DNA of 64,000 nucleotides from Desulfobacterales bacterium (GTDB taxonomy: Bacteria; Desulfobacterota; Desulfobacteria; Desulfobacterales; JAIPEE01). The position numbers and the translations under genes are program-made. The stretch lies in the NCBI GenBank assembly GCA_021737275.1, contig JAIPEE010000004.1, positions 1 to 64,000 on the forward strand. Reading direction: 5' to 3'. Shown piece after piece: positions 3,099-15,100 of the stretch. The notes beneath the pieces are model-generated. The model did not search any database. It was given only the letters and a program-made list of their open reading frames with translations, and had not been told where the DNA came from. Within the stretch, counting starts at the first letter, position 1; the number at the start of each line of letters is the position of its first letter.

Positions 3099-4487
3099 TC
3101 AATGGTCTTTTTTGGTGCCGACTTCTATACCTAACTTCTTGATCTTCTGATTCAAGCCGCTCTTGCCTATTCCCAGCATCTTCGCCGCATGAGCCTGAAC
3201 ATTATCCGCCTGTTTAAGTGCCCGCTCGATCATACGCTTTTCAACCATCACAAGAGTATCATAAAGGCTCGCATTAGAGGGAATGCCGTCCATCTCAAAA
3301 GTGTTGAACACACTTTTTTTAAAATCCCTGGGAAGATCTGATACCGTAATCGTATCACCGGGGCAGAGAATCATTGCCCGTTCAATAACATTTTCAAGCT
3401 CTCGCACATTACCGGGCCAGGCATAATCAAAAAACAGCAGTTCAACTTCATGATCCACACCCTTAACCGGGATTTCCACCTTACGCTCATCTGCATACTT
3501 GTTGATAAAGTGCTGCACCAGTAAACGAATATCATCGAGTCGCTCTTTTAGTTCAGGCATAACAATTTGCATGACATTCAGCCGGAAAAACAGATCTTCT
3601 CGAAAATTTCCCCTGACAACTTCATCTTTTAAGGACTTGTTGGTTGCAGCAACAAATCGGGTATCAACAGATATTGGTTTTTCACCACCAACTCTTTCGA
3701 TGGTTTTTTCCTGTAAAACACGAAGCAGTTTAACCTGAAGGTATTGTGACAACTCACCAATTTCATCCAGAAAAAGCGTCCCGCCTTCGGCAAGTTCAAA
3801 ACGACCCTTTTTCATACTTATTGCACCGGTAAAAGCGCCTTTTTCATGACCAAAAAGCTCACTTTCAAGCAAGCTTTCTGCAAGTGCACTACAATTAACA
3901 GCCACAAAGGGCTTTCCATGACGAGGGCTGTTGTAATGAATTGATTTGGCAACCAGCTCCTTGCCGGTTCCACTGCCCCCCTCAATCAAAACCGTGGCAT
4001 TAGTTGGAGCCACCTTTCGGATTGTGGAAAACACTTCCTGCATGGCAAGGCTTTTGCCAATGATATTATCAAAACTGTATTGTGACTCGATGGAATCTCT
4101 TAGCAGGCGATTTTCTTTAACTATTCTGAACATTGCTATCGCCTTGTTTACATAGATAATCAGCCGCTCATTATCAAAGGGCTTTAGGATATAGTTATAT
4201 GCCCCCTTTTGCATAGCTTCCACAGCCTTTTCCACTGTCCCATGGGCTGTCATCATGATAACCGGAAGCTCACTGTCCATCTCCTTTATATGCTCAAGAA
4301 GCTGAATACCGTCCATATTCGGCATTTTCATGTCGGTCAGGACAAGATCAACATCACAGTTTCTAAGCAGGTCGAGTGCTTCCGGGCCACTGTTTGCTTC
4401 AAGGGTTTCATACCCTTCATCGGATAGAACCGCACTTAATATGACTGCATAATTTTTTTCATCATCAACAATAAGGATTGTCTCCAT
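3099..4487 (-). CDS. NtrC-family sigma-54-dependent response regulator
   Basis: The 462 residues contain the three NtrC modules. A receiver domain (about 1-118) has the phosphoacceptor Asp52 in VLTDMKMP. An AAA+ domain (about 140-385) has Walker A GGSGTGKE and an intact GAFTGA loop ([10 protein letters not shown]) for contacting sigma-54. A Fis-type helix-turn-helix lies at the C-terminus ([20 protein letters not shown]). It should activate sigma-54 promoters when phosphorylated by the histidine kinase encoded 2 nt upstream. The two follow the Mla-like transporter genes on the same strand with a 42-nt gap, suggesting a single operon. No sigma-54 promoter was recognised nearby, so its target genes are unknown. 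Confidence 0.93.
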
Positions 4488-4489
4488 GA

Positions 4490-5917
4490 CTATCCCTCCA
4501 ACTTTATCGGCAACGTAACAACAACACGGGCGCCGGAGTCTTTCCTGTTTTCAATAATAATTTTGCCGGCATGAGCCTCAATAATATTTTTAACTATACC
4601 AAGGCCAAGACCGGTGCCTTTTTCCTTGGTTGTAAAAAAAGGATCCCAAATTTTATTAGCCTGTTCCTCTGCTATACCCTTCCCCTCATCTTCAATACAG
4701 ATCTGAATATTTTCATCATCGGTGCTGATTTCGACATGGACTTCCCCACCCGCCGGCATAGCCTGCATGGCATTTATCAACAGGTTTAAAAATGCCTGGT
4801 AAAGCATTGAAGCATCTGCATTGATTTCAGGGATCTGATCACGCTGGAACTTTTTAAAAATTGTATAGCCCCTGGATTTGATCTCCGGTTCCAGAAATAT
4901 GATATTTTTATCAATGATTTCTTCGATCCGGCATGGCACCAGATTAGGGCGTCTGGGACGTGCAAAATTGAGAAAATCCGTAATGATATTGTTCAGACGT
5001 CGTGACTCTTCGATAATTATCTGTGTAATTCTATTTGTCCGATCATCCGGTTTATCTGTTTTCTTTTTCAAAAGTTCAGCAGAACTTATAATTATTCCCA
5101 GCGGATTTCTGATTTCATGGGAGACACCGGCTACCATTTCACCAATAGATGACAGCCTTTCAGCACGATCAAGCTGCTCCCTGAGCTTGATCTCTTCCTG
5201 GGCACGTTTCTGAGAAATACGCTCTCCCCTTTTTACAACCAGAAGAAGTGCCAGGAAAAGTGCGCACATAACTGAAGATCCGGTTATAATAACCCTGATC
5301 TGAAAACTGAAAATAGTTTTATACTCATCGGAAAGATCCTGAACGATCTCCACTACTCCCAGCACAGGCCCTGAAAGTGTAGAAAGCGGGCGCTCTGCCC
5401 TTAATGGTGCAAATGTAATAATTTTATTTTCCTTGGAAATCCCCAGCAATATCTCCCAGAAACTGCCCCGTTGCTCTACTATTGATGTAGCTGAGCCTTT
5501 CAATGCTTTTTTATAGATTGTTCCGCCGGCATTTTGCTTTCCGATCAATGCCTTGTCAAAGCTGTAAGAGATTGTATCATTCATGTTATAGATATTCACC
5601 TGCTCCACGTTAAAGCTGTGCAGGGTGCTCCGTACAACCTTATCCATTCGCTCAAACTGCTCAGGATTACTGAGCTGTATTTTTCCGTATTTAAGTGCGA
5701 CAGGGATAATAAACTGTAGAAAGACTTGATGGTTCAGGTTTTCGACAAGAAGAAGTGCATAATCTTCACTTTTCTGGCGTTGCGTTGAGCGCGCCCAGTG
5801 AATATTCATAACGGAAAGTACAATTGTACCAATAAAAATAGCAATAATACTGGTAAAAGTGAAATACTTAACCAGTCTGAAGGGTTTTACTTTTTCTTCT
5901 GGAATTTTTGGCCTCAT
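4490..5917 (-). CDS. Membrane sensor histidine kinase
   Basis: The 475 residues have a transmembrane helix near residues 18-38 and a second near 207-230, bracketing a periplasmic sensor region of about 170 residues with no recognised family. The cytoplasmic part has a HisKA dimerisation helix with the phosphorylated His in SHEIRNPLG and a HATPase domain with an N-box (NLLINAMQAM), a G1 box (DEGKGI) and a G2 box (GTGLGLGI). It phosphorylates the NtrC-type regulator immediately downstream. This layout is like the ZraS/AtoS group, but the sensed signal is not deducible. Its position directly after mlaD suggests an envelope lipid or stress signal; that is inference from context. Confidence 0.9.
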   Translation of the reverse strand: MRPKIPEEKVKPFRLVKYFTFTSIIAIFIGTIVLSVMNIHWARSTQRQKSEDYALLLVENLNHQVFLQFIIPVALKYGKIQLSNPEQFERMDKVVRSTLHSFNVEQVNIYNMNDTISYSFDKALIGKQNAGGTIYKKALKGSATSIVEQRGSFWEILLGISKENKIITFAPLRAERPLSTLSGPVLGVVEIVQDLSDEYKTIFSFQIRVIITGSSVMCALFLALLLVVKRGERISQKRAQEEIKLREQLDRAERLSSIGEMVAGVSHEIRNPLGIIISSAELLKKKTDKPDDRTNRITQIIIEESRRLNNIITDFLNFARPRRPNLVPCRIEEIIDKNIIFLEPEIKSRGYTIFKKFQRDQIPEINADASMLYQAFLNLLINAMQAMPAGGEVHVEISTDDENIQICIEDEGKGIAEEQANKIWDPFFTTKEKGTGLGLGIVKNIIEAHAGKIIIENRKDSGARVVVTLPIKLEG

Positions 5918-5959: not shown

Positions 5960-7459
5960 TTACTGTACAGGCATTGAAATGCCGGACATAAGGGATTTTA
6001 TATCTTCATCAGAAAAATTAATCCCTGCACCTATGAAAAAAGAATCGGTATCATTATCACTGATAAAATCATCATAGCCTGCCGTCAGGTAGATGTGTTT
6101 TATGGGTGAAAAATCAGCGCCTATCTTCAGGTGCGCATTTGTATCCGGATCAAAATCAAAAGCGTCAAAAGAGAGTTTCAGATAATCTTCAAACAGGTAG
6201 TAATCCAGGCCGAAACCACCGGTTGATTCAATTATACCGCCACGCAATACAACATCATGATATCTTTTGGCAATCTGGGCTGAAAATTTCAATTTGTCTT
6301 TCTCTACCTCTTCAACACGCTCATATGTTGTATTGCCGTTTTTATCTGTCCGGGTATATTCGGTAACGGTTTTCTTGCCCCTGGGATCATCCACAAGCTG
6401 AAGAATATAATACTTGTCTTCCTTGGGCTGAATCTTCAATGTTACATAAGACTTTATATCTGAGGTATCCGTCAGATATTCCGCTTTGTAATCAAGATAC
6501 GTTTTGAACCGTTCCTGCTGTGCCAGAAAATCATTGATGCTTTCAAGGGTTTCATTGAGATTTTCGACGGTTTCCTCATCATTTACCAGACGACCCAGCG
6601 TACCCTCACCATTGTCAATCTTTTCAGAAACATTCTTTAACGATGCAAGAGCGGCATTCAGATTTTCGACCGTCTCTTCATCATTAACCAGTTTGCCGAG
6701 GCTACCTTCGCCGTTGTTGATCTTGGCTGTAATTTCACCCATGCCGAGCATAAGATCTTCAACCATCTCCGATGCTTGTCTGACATTTGCAACAATCATG
6801 CGAATATCTTCGCTGTTGGCATTTCCCATCTCTTTTAGCTGCTCCGAAAACTCGGAAAAATTGGCAATGATCCTTGTAACATCTTCATTGTTTTCCTGAA
6901 CAGTTTTATTCAGTGTTTCAAGCATCTCACGTGAATTATCGATGATAGACCTTAACGCATCCTCACCACTTTGACCGCCCGCAACATTGGAAAGAGACGT
7001 TGTCAGTTTTTTAATATCATTTGCCACATCACCCAGGGCACTCATCATCATATCCATATCAATTGTGGAAATGGTCTTTTTGATGGTGTCGCCCTCTGCC
7101 AGTGCAGGGGAAGTCGATGATCCCGGAATAAGTTCAACAAATTTGTCCCCCAGAATACCTCGCGTACGAATGATAGCACTGACATCTTCGGTAAGTCTTA
7201 TTTCAGGTCTTATTTTGAGCGTTACCAGTGCTTTTCCATTTTGAAGTGCGATCTTGCCGACACGCCCAACTTCAACACCGGCTATTTCAACACTGGTATC
7301 CTCTGCAAGGCCGGTAACAGAATCAAACAATACATATAAACTATAACCACCATTGCGGGAAAATCCTATGTCACCAACCCTCATGGACATAAAGACAAGG
7401 ATTACAATTCCGGCAACAACCAGTAAACCAACTTTTGCTTCAGCGCTAAATTTTGACAT
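5960..7459 (-). CDS. MlaD-like MCE protein with repeated coiled region and beta-rich C-terminal extension
   Basis: An MCE-domain substrate-binding component of an Mla-type lipid ABC transporter, anchored in the inner membrane and acting in the periplasm. Residues 9-27 form the anchor helix, and about 38-115 the MCE domain (FDSVTGLAEDTSVEIAGVEV, GILGDKFVELIPG). A helical needle region follows. At about 245-310 are two tandem copies of a roughly 32-residue unit with NGEGSLGKLVNDEETVENLN and NGEGTLGRLVNDEETVENLN. The last 160 residues are beta-rich with alternating polar/hydrophobic strands and FGLDYYLFEDYLKLSFDAF-like segments, as in outer-membrane barrel proteins. At 499 residues it is far longer than E. 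coli MlaD (about 180). It follows the ATPase gene by 11 nt. Confidence 0.88.
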   Translation of the reverse strand: MSKFSAEAKVGLLVVAGIVILVFMSMRVGDIGFSRNGGYSLYVLFDSVTGLAEDTSVEIAGVEVGRVGKIALQNGKALVTLKIRPEIRLTEDVSAIIRTRGILGDKFVELIPGSSTSPALAEGDTIKKTISTIDMDMMMSALGDVANDIKKLTTSLSNVAGGQSGEDALRSIIDNSREMLETLNKTVQENNEDVTRIIANFSEFSEQLKEMGNANSEDIRMIVANVRQASEMVEDLMLGMGEITAKINNGEGSLGKLVNDEETVENLNAALASLKNVSEKIDNGEGTLGRLVNDEETVENLNETLESINDFLAQQERFKTYLDYKAEYLTDTSDIKSYVTLKIQPKEDKYYILQLVDDPRGKKTVTEYTRTDKNGNTTYERVEEVEKDKLKFSAQIAKRYHDVVLRGGIIESTGGFGLDYYLFEDYLKLSFDAFDFDPDTNAHLKIGADFSPIKHIYLTAGYDDFISDNDTDSFFIGAGINFSDEDIKSLMSGISMPVQ

Positions 7460-7470
7460 AGCAAAAACCG

Positions 7471-8211
7471 TTAGAAATTATTATCTTCTACCTTTCGCTC
7501 TATGAATTGCCTGACAACAGGGTTCCCGGTCGCTTTAACCTCTTCAGGTGTACCCTTTTCAATAATTTTACCATGATACAGCATGGCCACTGTATGCGCA
7601 ATCCTAAAAGTAGAATCAATATCATGGCTGATAACAATACACGTTGCACCTGTTTCCTGCTGGGTTTTAACGATCAGCTTGTCAACGGCATCACACATAA
7701 TCGGATCCAGGCCGGTTGTGGGCTCATCAAAAAGTATAATTTTGGGATCAAGTGCAAGCGCCCGCGCAAGCCCCACACGTTTTCGCATACCGCCTGAAAG
7801 TTCTGACGGCATTTTATGGGTGACATCCTTTAGACCTACCTGCAGGAGTTTCTTCTCAACGATGGCCTTAATTTCTCTTCCTTTAAGCTTTGTATGCTCC
7901 TTCAGCGGGAAAGCAACATTATCACCCACATTCATGGAGTCAAAAAGTGCCGCATCCTGAAAAAGCATGCCAAATTTTTTGCGTACCTCATTCAACTCTT
8001 TTTCACCAAGTGTTGTGGTATCCACACCATCGATCATGATCTTACCTGAATCCGGTCGGATCAGACCGATCATATGCTTCAGCAGTACACTTTTGCCGCC
8101 GCCGCTCTGTCCGATAATAACCGTAATCTTACCGGGTTCAATGGTCAGATCAATGTCATCAAGGACTTTCTGTCCGTTAAAGGATTTTTTTATTTTTTTT
8201 AATTCAATCAT
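7471..8211 (-). CDS. Mla-type ABC transporter ATPase (MlaF-like)
   Basis: The 246-residue cytoplasmic ATPase of the MCE lipid transporter. It has Walker A (GQSGGGKS), Q-loop (MLFQDAALFDSMNV), the ABC signature (LSGGMRKRVGLARAL), Walker B (IILFDEPTTGLDP) and the switch His (VISHD). The DAALFDSMNV segment and LSGGMRKR variant are characteristic of MlaF/Ttg2A ATPases. Its ATG shares one base with the stop codon of the permease gene, so they are translationally coupled. Confidence 0.94.
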   Translation of the reverse strand: MIELKKIKKSFNGQKVLDDIDLTIEPGKITVIIGQSGGGKSVLLKHMIGLIRPDSGKIMIDGVDTTTLGEKELNEVRKKFGMLFQDAALFDSMNVGDNVAFPLKEHTKLKGREIKAIVEKKLLQVGLKDVTHKMPSELSGGMRKRVGLARALALDPKIILFDEPTTGLDPIMCDAVDKLIVKTQQETGATCIVISHDIDSTFRIAHTVAMLYHGKIIEKGTPEEVKATGNPVVRQFIERKVEDNNF

Positions 8212-8981
8212 TAAAACATTACCGCTGTAAGAAAATAATCACTTACCAGGATTGTGACGGAAGCCATAACAACCGCCTGTGTTGTTGCCTTGCCAACCCC
8301 TTCTGCACCGCCGGTAGTATAAAACCCCTTGTAACAACCTATCAGGGAAAGAATAAAACCAAAAACTGCCGACTTGATCAAACCGTTTATGATGTCATCC
8401 ACAACCAGAAGGTCATAGATGCGGGCCATAAATATACCGGAATTAATATCCAGCAATTTGACCCCGACAAAATAGCCGCCGGCAATCCCGATAAAATCTG
8501 AAACAATGGTTAAAAACGGCAGCATAATGATACTGGCAACAACCCTGGGCACAACCAGATACTGAACCGGGTTAACCGACATGGTGTACAGGGCATCTAT
8601 CTGTTCGGTGACACGCATGGTACCAATAGCTGCTGCCATGGCTGAGCCGGCTCTGCCGGTTACCATTAGCGCTGTAAAAACGGGCCCTAACTCACGGGTG
8701 ATCGCCAGCGCAACGGTTGCTCCCACAAGGCTTTCACCGCCGAATTTTCTAAACCCGTAGTATGACTGTATTGCCAGCACCATTCCTGTAAATGTACCTG
8801 TAATAAGGACAACCACAAGGGAGTTGGTGCCCACAAACTCCATCTGTTTTAATATTTCTTTAAGTCTGAAAGGCTTGCGGAACAGCCAGGCAGCTATAGA
8901 CAACAAGAAAAGAAGAATCCTGCCGAACTCTTCTAAAAGATATATGAATGGCCTGCCTGCGAATTCAAATAAACGTAACAT
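8211..8981 (-). CDS. Mla-type ABC transporter permease (MlaE-like)
   Basis: A 256-residue integral membrane permease with the MlaE signature region (ITRELGPVFTALMVTGRAGS, then IGTMRVTEQIDAL) and five or so hydrophobic helices. With the ATPase and MCE protein it should move phospholipids between membranes. It is the first gene of the operon; a good sigma-70 promoter lies about 75-100 nt upstream (9054-9082). Gene order permease-ATPase-MCE protein is as in other Mla operons, but no MlaB or MlaC gene follows; a two-component system follows instead. Confidence 0.94.
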   Translation of the reverse strand: MLRLFEFAGRPFIYLLEEFGRILLFLLSIAAWLFRKPFRLKEILKQMEFVGTNSLVVVLITGTFTGMVLAIQSYYGFRKFGGESLVGATVALAITRELGPVFTALMVTGRAGSAMAAAIGTMRVTEQIDALYTMSVNPVQYLVVPRVVASIIMLPFLTIVSDFIGIAGGYFVGVKLLDINSGIFMARIYDLLVVDDIINGLIKSAVFGFILSLIGCYKGFYTTGGAEGVGKATTQAVVMASVTILVSDYFLTAVMF

Positions 8982-12616: not shown

Positions 12617-13054
12617 ATGCCAAGTTTTGTAATAGCTGAAAAATGTGACGGCTGTAAAGGTGGCGATAAGACAGCTTGTATGTATATCTGTCCTAACGAC
12701 CTGATGGTATTGGATCCTAATGCAATGAAGGCTTACAATCAGGAGCCCGATCAGTGCTGGGAATGTTTTTCTTGTGTAAAAATTTGCCCGACCCAGGCTA
12801 TCGAAGTTCGTGGTTACTCTGACTTTGTTCCGCTTGGAAGCAGTGTAATGCCTATGATGGGTACTGAAGACATTATGTGGACCTGTAAATTCAGAAATGG
12901 TCTCATCAAACGCTTTAAGTTTCCTATCCGGACAACTGCAGAAGGTACGGCAAATGCTTATGCTGACCTTAAAGGAAAAGATCTGGACAGTGGCCTGCTC
13001 TCAACTGAAGAGGTTGATGGTAGAGTATTGCCGACTCCAATTGCAACTGTTTAA
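12617..13054 (+). CDS. aprB: Adenylylsulfate (APS) reductase beta subunit
   Basis: The 145-residue ferredoxin-like subunit of APS reductase passes electrons to the FAD of AprA in the cytoplasm. The N-terminal half holds two [4Fe-4S] motifs: CDGCKGGDKTACMYICP, with the longer insertion typical of AprB, and CWECFSCVKICP. The C-terminal tail (from about residue 85) wraps around AprA in known structures. AGGAGGT lies 7 nt before the ATG. aprA follows after 69 nt with its own AAGGAGG. Length and motifs match sulfate-reducer AprB. Confidence 0.97.
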   Translation: MPSFVIAEKCDGCKGGDKTACMYICPNDLMVLDPNAMKAYNQEPDQCWECFSCVKICPTQAIEVRGYSDFVPLGSSVMPMMGTEDIMWTCKFRNGLIKRFKFPIRTTAEGTANAYADLKGKDLDSGLLSTEEVDGRVLPTPIATV

Positions 13055-13123
13055 TTGATATCTGAGGTTGAATAAACACATTAAAATTTAATCTTAATAC
13101 GAAATATTTTTAAGGAGGATATA

Positions 13124-15100
13124 ATGGCATTACCAAATAAACCTTTGGGTGAAATTAAGGCCGTAAGAGATCCTGAAGTTGAAGAGCGCGAAGTTGATAT
13201 TCTGATCGTTGGTGGTGGTATGGCTGCCTGCGGTACTGCTTTTGAGCAAAAAAAATGGACACCGGACGCAAAAATTCTTCTCTGTGACAAAGCTGCTATG
13301 GATAGAAGTGGCGCTGTTGCTCAGGGCCTTTCTGCAATCAATACTTATATTGGCGACAACACAGCTGATGACTATGTCCGTATGGTACGCAATGACCTTA
13401 TGGGCCTTGTTCGTGAAGATCTTATCTTTGACCTTGGAACTCATGTTGATGACTCTGTTCATCTGTTCGAAGAGTGGGGCCTTCCTGTTTGGAAAAAAAC
13501 CGACGATGGTAAAAACCTCGATGGTAAAAAAGGTCAGAAAGCCGGTACACTGAAAGCTGGTGCTACTCCGGTTCGTACAGGTAAATGGCAGATCATGATC
13601 AATGGTGAATCTTACAAACGTATCGTTGCTGAAGCTGCAAAACTGGCTCTTGGCGAAGATAACATCCTTGAAAGAGTTTTCATCGTTGAATTGCTGCTTG
13701 ACGCTAACAAAGATAACCAGATTGCCGGCGCAGTTGGTTTCTCTGTTCGTGAAAACAAAATATATATAATCAAATGTAAGACTATGATGGTTGCCTGTGG
13801 TGGCGCTGTTAATATTTACCAGCCACGTTCAGTTGGTGAGGGTAAAGGTCGTGCATGGTATCCGGTATGGAATGCAGGCTCCACATACACAATGTGTATG
13901 AAGGTTGGTGCTGAACTTTCCATGATGGAAAACCGTTTCACCCCGGCCCGTTTTAAAGACGGTTACGGCCCTGTTGGTGCATGGTTCTTGCTCTTTAAAG
14001 CTAAAGCACTTAATGGTCTTGGTGAAAACTTTGCCGCCGGCGATGCTGCTAAAGCAGAGCTGGAAAAATATGCACCTTATGGAACCGCAGCAATTACACC
14101 GACCTGTCTGCGTAACCATCTGATGCTGTTCGAGATGAAAGAAGGCCGTGGCCCGATCCAGATGGATACGGTTACAGCACTCGCTACTCTCGGCGAAACA
14201 ATGGACAAGAAAGAACTTAAGCATCTTGAATCAGAAGCTTGGGAAGATTTCCTTGACATGACTTGTGGTCAGGCTAACCTGTGGTGTGCAACAAACACCG
14301 AGCCTGAAAAGAAAAACTCTGAAATTATGCCGACCGAACCTTACCTTCTTGGTTCACATTCCGGTTGCTGTGGTCTTTGGACTTCAGGCCCGGATTACGA
14401 CTGGGTTCCGGATGCATACAAAATTACAGCTTCCAGTGGTAAAATATACAACCGTATGACTACAGTTGACGGTCTGTTTACAGCTGGTGACGGTGTTGGT
14501 TGTTCAGGTCATAAATTCTCTTCAGGTTCTCATGCTGAAGGTCGTATGGTTGCTAAAGAAATGGCCAGATATGTCCGCGACAATGCTGATTTCGCTCCTG
14601 CGCTGTCTCAGAGCAAAGAAGAGCTTGTTGACCTTGTTTACAAACCGGTCAGAGTTTACCTCGACAACTGCGAATACACAACTGCAGAAGACATTAATCC
14701 TGAATACATCAAACCTGCAGGCATGGCTCTGCGTCTGATGAAAGCAACTCATGAGTATGGTGCCGGTACGGCTACATACTACCAGACAAGCAGCAAGAGT
14801 CTTGAAGTTGTTATGGAACTTCTTCAGGTTATGCGCGAAGACTGTGAAAAACTGGCAGCCGGTGATCTCCATGAGCTGATGAGAGCTTGGGAAATCTATC
14901 ATCGTATCTGGACTGTTGAAGCACATCTTCGTCATATCCAGTATCGTAAAGAGACTCGTTATCCTGGATTCTACTATCAGGCTGACTATCCGGGTCAGGA
15001 TGATGAAAACTGGTTCTGCTTTGTTAACTCAAAGTATGATCCTAAAGCATCAAAATGGGATATATTCAAGAAAGATTACATCAAGATCATCCCTGATTGA
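13124..15100 (+). CDS. aprA: Adenylylsulfate (APS) reductase alpha subunit
   Basis: The 658-residue flavoprotein reduces APS to sulfite and AMP, the second step of dissimilatory sulfate reduction. It belongs to the fumarate reductase/succinate dehydrogenase flavoprotein superfamily. The FAD-binding strand is VDILIVGGGMAACGTAFEQ near the N-terminus, and later motifs include GAVAQGLSAINTYIGD and LFTAGDGVGCSGHKFSSGSH. Full length. It forms an operon with aprB and ends at a strong terminator (15145-15178), so qmoA probably relies on its own promoter or on readthrough. Confidence 0.98.
   Translation: MALPNKPLGEIKAVRDPEVEEREVDILIVGGGMAACGTAFEQKKWTPDAKILLCDKAAMDRSGAVAQGLSAINTYIGDNTADDYVRMVRNDLMGLVREDLIFDLGTHVDDSVHLFEEWGLPVWKKTDDGKNLDGKKGQKAGTLKAGATPVRTGKWQIMINGESYKRIVAEAAKLALGEDNILERVFIVELLLDANKDNQIAGAVGFSVRENKIYIIKCKTMMVACGGAVNIYQPRSVGEGKGRAWYPVWNAGSTYTMCMKVGAELSMMENRFTPARFKDGYGPVGAWFLLFKAKALNGLGENFAAGDAAKAELEKYAPYGTAAITPTCLRNHLMLFEMKEGRGPIQMDTVTALATLGETMDKKELKHLESEAWEDFLDMTCGQANLWCATNTEPEKKNSEIMPTEPYLLGSHSGCCGLWTSGPDYDWVPDAYKITASSGKIYNRMTTVDGLFTAGDGVGCSGHKFSSGSHAEGRMVAKEMARYVRDNADFAPALSQSKEELVDLVYKPVRVYLDNCEYTTAEDINPEYIKPAGMALRLMKATHEYGAGTATYYQTSSKSLEVVMELLQVMREDCEKLAAGDLHELMRAWEIYHRIWTVEAHLRHIQYRKETRYPGFYYQADYPGQDDENWFCFVNSKYDPKASKWDIFKKDYIKIIPD

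Follow-up and report, generated by a model that had tools for sequence, protein, structure and literature searches.

The window, by which we mean the whole stretch of 64,000 nucleotides analysed here, contains an mlaEFD operon that we consider quite likely to encode a transenvelope phospholipid transporter of the Veillonella type. In the explanation that fits the data best, every MlaD chain would end in its own barrel and the outer-membrane ends of such chains would be replaceable. The proposal of an earlier note on this DNA that one chain reaches from an inner-membrane anchor to the outer membrane is largely supported by structure prediction and by genomic distribution. The bridge idea is not new, because MlaD of Veillonella parvula has the same architecture, a transmembrane helix followed by an MCE domain, a long helix and a ten-stranded barrel; Grasekamp 2023 (PMC10665443) proposed a bridge for it and gave localisation data. 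The one-chain bridge is thus already published and the window protein belongs to that published kind.

The new part is a proposed module exchange with a protein family that we name X. The window MlaD adds a well-conserved one-chain bridge to the cases of phospholipid transit outside the E. coli MlaA/MlaC shuttle, and the phylum holds forms with and without the barrel side by side. This allows a comparison, which yields X as a concrete candidate for the outer-membrane partner of the barrel-less long MlaDs. Word searches of one literature library returned no account of an outer-membrane module exchange with X as partner and no title or abstract describing X, by which its absence in print is not established.

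The operon and the architecture of MlaD

ORF calling placed mlaD, which starts with ATG and encodes 499 aa, at 5960..7459 on the minus strand, with ends that match exactly the coding stretch named in the earlier note; the plus strand is interrupted there by many stops. The gene is the third of an operon in the order mlaE-mlaF-mlaD. The mlaE permease gene (8211..8981, minus strand; PF02405, E 1.6e-84) overlaps by 1 bp with the mlaF ATPase gene (7471..8211, minus strand; ABC_tran, E 1.5e-35), which lies 11 bp upstream of mlaD. PRK11831 MlaF was the top NCBIfam match of MlaF, under its cut-off, and Pfam gave no STAS domain match in the window MlaE. The operon is flanked by a kinase gene and by a gene on the opposite strand and contains no ABC_trans_aux lipoprotein gene.

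Genes for a histidine kinase and then a response regulator (window 3099-5917) follow directly downstream of mlaD on the same strand. As a kinase and a regulator are also found near mlaD in related loci (19 and 16 of 41, respectively, many of these loci being truncated by contig ends), envelope sensing or regulation of the Mla system may be the role of these two genes. Elsewhere in the window, at 12617-15100, two ORFs resemble by eye adenylylsulfate reductase subunits B and A, which fits a sulfate reducer. Two further MCE operons occur in the genome, both without a barrel. The second, on contig 50 (L075:3075-6536), consists of a STAS-MlaE fusion, MlaF, MlaD and an ABC_trans_aux lipoprotein, a layout that corresponds to that of Brucella Mpc (PMC12436622). 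In the third, on contig 8, the ATPase position is taken by an ORF (L076:4328-4999) that had no Pfam match and resembles by eye an ABC ATPase with lost Walker motifs.

The long MlaD of the window combines a transmembrane helix, an MCE domain, a helical needle and a C-terminal barrel, an assignment based on the ORF, Pfam and 41 relatives. A hydrophobic helix at residues 6-29 (7373..7444, minus strand), predicted by AF2 with a block confidence of 46-62, is the putative N-terminal transmembrane segment. It is followed by the MCE/MlaD domain at residues 38-113 (7121..7348, minus strand; PF02470, E 3.5e-19), the single MCE stretch detected by Pfam, which matched E. coli MlaD (5uw8) with a VIA Z of 18.8. 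The NCBIfam MlaD equivalog covered only residues 5-140, under its cut-off, and Pfam found nothing above cut-off past residue 113. The full-length AF2 model had a mean pLDDT of 56.5, with acceptable values for the MCE and C-terminal parts and values <50 for the needle, whose approximately 180 residues (135-313; 6521..7057, minus strand) are predicted to be helical with this low confidence. With a helix rise of 0.15 nm per residue, the 204 residues between the MCE domain and the barrel would span about 31 nm as one continuous straight helix, an upper bound because the predicted helix breaks.

Self-comparison of the needle revealed two adjacent 34-residue NGEG repeats at residues 247-280 (6620..6721, minus strand) and 281-314 (6518..6619, minus strand), with 22 of 34 residues identical at lag 34; shuffling the stretch 300 times never gave more than 12. 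The tandem repeats of the earlier note are therefore real, their period being 34 and not 32 residues. Conservation is higher in the second copy, which adjoins the barrel, than in the first (2.80 vs 2.12 bits per column in 66 sequences).

The beta region of about 160 residues that had been likened to outer-membrane strands was recovered as residues 319-483 (6011..6505, minus strand; 165 residues), followed by a short helix at 484-492, and outer-membrane barrels led its fold matches. We assign it as a predicted ten-stranded barrel of the outer-membrane type, on the basis of the AF2 model, strand alternation and fold matches. Modelled alone with a 41-row alignment, the C-terminal 186 residues reached a pLDDT of 86.1 and a pTM of 0.75. 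DSSP delimited 12 strand segments, ten of which alternate strongly and two, 362-371 and 377-386, hardly. Since these two are polar, variable and without alternation, the count of 12 was dropped and residues 362-386 (6302..6376, minus strand), of low conservation, are read as a hairpin in an extracellular loop. Over the ten strands, the mean difference between the hydrophobic and the polar face was 1.08, compared with 0.51 +/- 0.10 after shuffling (0 of 5000 shuffles as high). Among the folds listed by VIA-align 2 the top match was OpcA (Z 17.1, rmsd 2.4, 139 aligned), followed by the Legionella Dot/Icm porin (Z 16.2, rmsd 5.9, 154 aligned), Pla (Z 14.5, rmsd 3.0, 134 aligned) and the designed ten-stranded barrel TMB10 (Z 14.0, rmsd 2.6, 132 aligned). 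In Foldseek only two matches had E <0.001, TMB10 at the top with E 4.7e-4 and a query-based TM-score of 0.52, followed by an outer-membrane receptor. A PHROGs search with the barrel gave no match.

The last strand, residues 473-483 (6011..6043, minus strand), holds an invariant G477 and a near-invariant F482 in a G-x-x-h-x-F pattern that resembles the BAM beta-signal. Past it lies a conserved tail (DEDIK..., short helix; 5963..6010, minus strand) with invariant D484, D486 and K488, expected on the periplasmic side. Besides these residues and G477, the invariant positions of alignment A1 include Q344, P345, D348, K349, Y351, D358, G361, R406, G408, G415, D419 and G461, a list that is not exhaustive.

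Distribution of the barrel, MlaA/MlaC and family X

The genome of the window, which is 96% complete and has LptD and TamB, gave 0 matches to MlaC (PF05494) and MlaA (PF04333), both of which were detected in the E. coli control. When the barrel profile A3 was searched against 297 genomes of the phylum, the barrel was found in 53, at one place each and always with E <1e-46, mostly in one open frame with the MCE domain; the other 244 had none. MlaA was present in 12/53 fused-barrel genomes vs 139/244 others (Fisher 7e-6; 0.004 by family majority, 96 families) and MlaC in 12/53 vs 156/244 (Fisher 4e-8; 0.001 by family majority, 96 families), P values that, like those given below, overstate the evidence because genome counts stand for few evolutionary events. 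Since at least one of the two is kept in 14 of the 53 genomes, including G072 of the same order, MlaA and MlaC are depleted and not excluded where the barrel is fused. The suggestion that the one-chain system does without a separate MlaA/MlaC accordingly holds for the window genome and fails as a rule.

Family X was recognized at 14 loci of the same phylum that encode barrel-less long MlaDs (L077-L090), picked from the stronger partial matches. Beside mlaEFD, all 14 have an ORF of 420-540 aa, the products being mutually similar (examples L077:1769-3283 and L084:1323-2783); it lies immediately downstream of mlaD in 12 loci and upstream of the operon in 2. By eye, X starts with a signal peptide or lipobox, appears exported and is built of units that resemble strands, for example 'LWPFF'. 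Counted by script, each protein has 10 to 19 hydrophobic-Pro motifs, at a median spacing of mostly 18 to 21 residues. Pfam searches of 13 of the 14 X proteins, all but L080, assigned no family at E 0.01, and comparison with PDB sequences yielded 0 matches. An NCBIfam scan of 6 of the 14 X proteins gave one match to LA_1737_Cterm below threshold (E 5.8e-6, 26.3 bits vs a cut-off of 60) and one match at chance level (E 0.12). There was no sign that X is a detached barrel, since hhalign gave a probability of 0.1% for homology of X to the fused barrel.

With profile A4, X was found in 95 of the 297 genomes, in 0/53 with a fused barrel vs 95/244 others (Fisher 1.5e-10). At the level of the 96 families, X occurs in 26 and the fused barrel in 20, with none shared (p 0.001). 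Among the 80 of 95 X genomes that could be checked by a listed MlaD place, X lies within 5 kb of mlaD on the same strand in 72, downstream in 70; in the other 8 it does not. X genomes are poor in MlaA (14/95) and MlaC (18/95), and fused barrel, X, MlaA or MlaC jointly cover 287 of 297 genomes. X probably supplies the outer-membrane end of barrel-less MlaDs.

Proposed transport route and alternatives

In the mechanism that we propose, six MlaD chains would form an MCE ring on MlaEF, and their helices, including the 34-residue repeats, would build a tube that crosses the periplasm. At its far end each chain would carry its own ten-stranded barrel, which would insert into the outer membrane and anchor the chain there. 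By analogy with Veillonella (Grasekamp 2023), MlaEF may drive lipid through the hexameric MlaD tube. The earlier note had expected the protein to form its own lipid channel end. This weaker part of the proposal is not supported, because a barrel of ten strands whose polar face is conserved offers little space for lipid. Lipid would then pass between or beside the barrels, or at the mouth of the tube, and not through a single barrel. In barrel-less relatives, where MlaD ends in a hydrophobic tail, the neighbour-encoded X would probably provide this end.

If the C-terminal domain were instead a soluble, ten-stranded lipid-binding barrel of the lipocalin or nitrobindin kind, it would sit at the needle tip in the periplasm and never enter the outer membrane. 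DUF3598, BFA1, nitrobindin and Rv2717c-like folds do match at Z 11-12 in VIA-align 2; the outer-membrane barrels, however, match better (Z 14-17). Furthermore, in 7 of 10 strands conservation is higher on the polar face, whereas conservation of a hydrophobic core would be expected of a soluble barrel; of the strand connections in the AF2 domain model, those on one side are mostly short and those on the other mostly long; and the last strand fits the beta-signal pattern. We therefore regard a soluble barrel as very improbable, and the soluble C-terminal domain that the earlier note had held against its own proposal is not suggested by these model-based comparisons.

A more serious competitor, still one that we do not favour, is that the barrel merely tethers the needle to the outer membrane and that lipid transfer is left to another outer-membrane protein. 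The little room for lipid in the barrel agrees with this, as does the judgement of Grasekamp 2023 (PMC10665443) that the V. parvula barrel is too narrow. That X and the fused barrel exclude each other and that MlaA/MlaC are depleted points, on the other hand, to a barrel that covers the outer-membrane end, evidence that is indirect. It is unlikely that lipid transport runs mainly through the contig 50 operon and that the barrel MlaD has another substrate. Such an operon is present, with a lipoprotein gene as described for Mpc (PMC12436622); the layout of the window operon and the lack of MlaA/MlaC matches nevertheless correspond to Veillonella, whose mla mutants show outer-membrane lipid phenotypes (PMC10665443).

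The Veillonella-type transporter that we prefer can be set against the known systems. V. parvula and the window share an operon of mlaEFD only, the order of domains and the lack of MlaA/MlaC in the genome. They differ in MlaD length (419 vs 499 aa, the latter with two 34-residue needle repeats), and are likened by architecture and not by barrel sequence (PMC10665443). The E. coli MlaFEDB-MlaC-MlaA system is similar in MlaE, MlaF and the MCE domain (VIA Z 18-19), but combines an MlaD of 183 aa with the shuttle MlaC and the lipoprotein MlaA, neither of which was found in the window genome. In Brucella Mpc (PMC12436622) and PqiABC, too, the MCE protein reaches toward the outer membrane by a long needle of helices; these systems, however, use an outer-membrane lipoprotein (MpcA/PqiC), and Mpc also a STAS-MlaE fusion, both of which are missing from the window operon. 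PqiB and LetB have several MCE domains per chain, the window MlaD one. Mycobacterial Mce1 (8fed) resembles it in its single-MCE chains and long helical tube, but is a hetero-hexamer with a tip of one strand per chain, compared with the full barrel per chain predicted here (Mce1 as described in PMC10665443).

Proposed exchange of the needle ends

Comparison of 66 fused forms with 54 barrel-less MlaDs (L077-L130) located the module boundary. In 45 of the 54 the last repeat motif lies 49 or 50 residues from the C-terminus. The barrel-less proteins end in a short, hydrophobic conserved tail (the 'EQTPITVLG' tail), and an E-x-x-P-hydrophobic motif, EQTPITVLGTLLGIFF or similar, occurs within the last 30 residues of 53/54 barrel-less MlaDs vs 1/66 fused forms. 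The repeat-bearing needle is thus common to both forms, and the exchange concerns the part past the last repeat. A tree built on the N-terminal 190 residues (MCE domain; 122 rows) was best fitted by 5 switches between the forms, well-supported branches forcing only 1.

These data lead us to infer one shared needle that can be combined with different outer-membrane ends, namely the fused barrel, X, or MlaA/MlaC. According to Grasekamp 2023 (PMC10665443), barrel-less long MlaDs are the majority form, and proteins as yet unidentified were considered for them. On balance we lean towards a reading in which the long MlaD needles of the phylum have exchangeable ends and X docks on the 'EQTPITVLG' tail to form the outer-membrane end; X would then be one of the proteins that Grasekamp 2023 considered for these MlaDs.

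No rule tying the presence of the barrel to the number of repeats was found among the 66 fused and 54 barrel-less forms. Of the 66 fused forms, 32 have a single motif hit and 30 have two, and 0 to 5 were counted in the barrel-less relatives. Repeat spacing in the latter was 34 (61 cases), 41 (19), 48 (2) or 67 (2) residues. Except for the two cases of 67, the spacing equals 34 or exceeds it by one or two heptads (7 or 14), as though the length of the needle were adjusted heptad by heptad.
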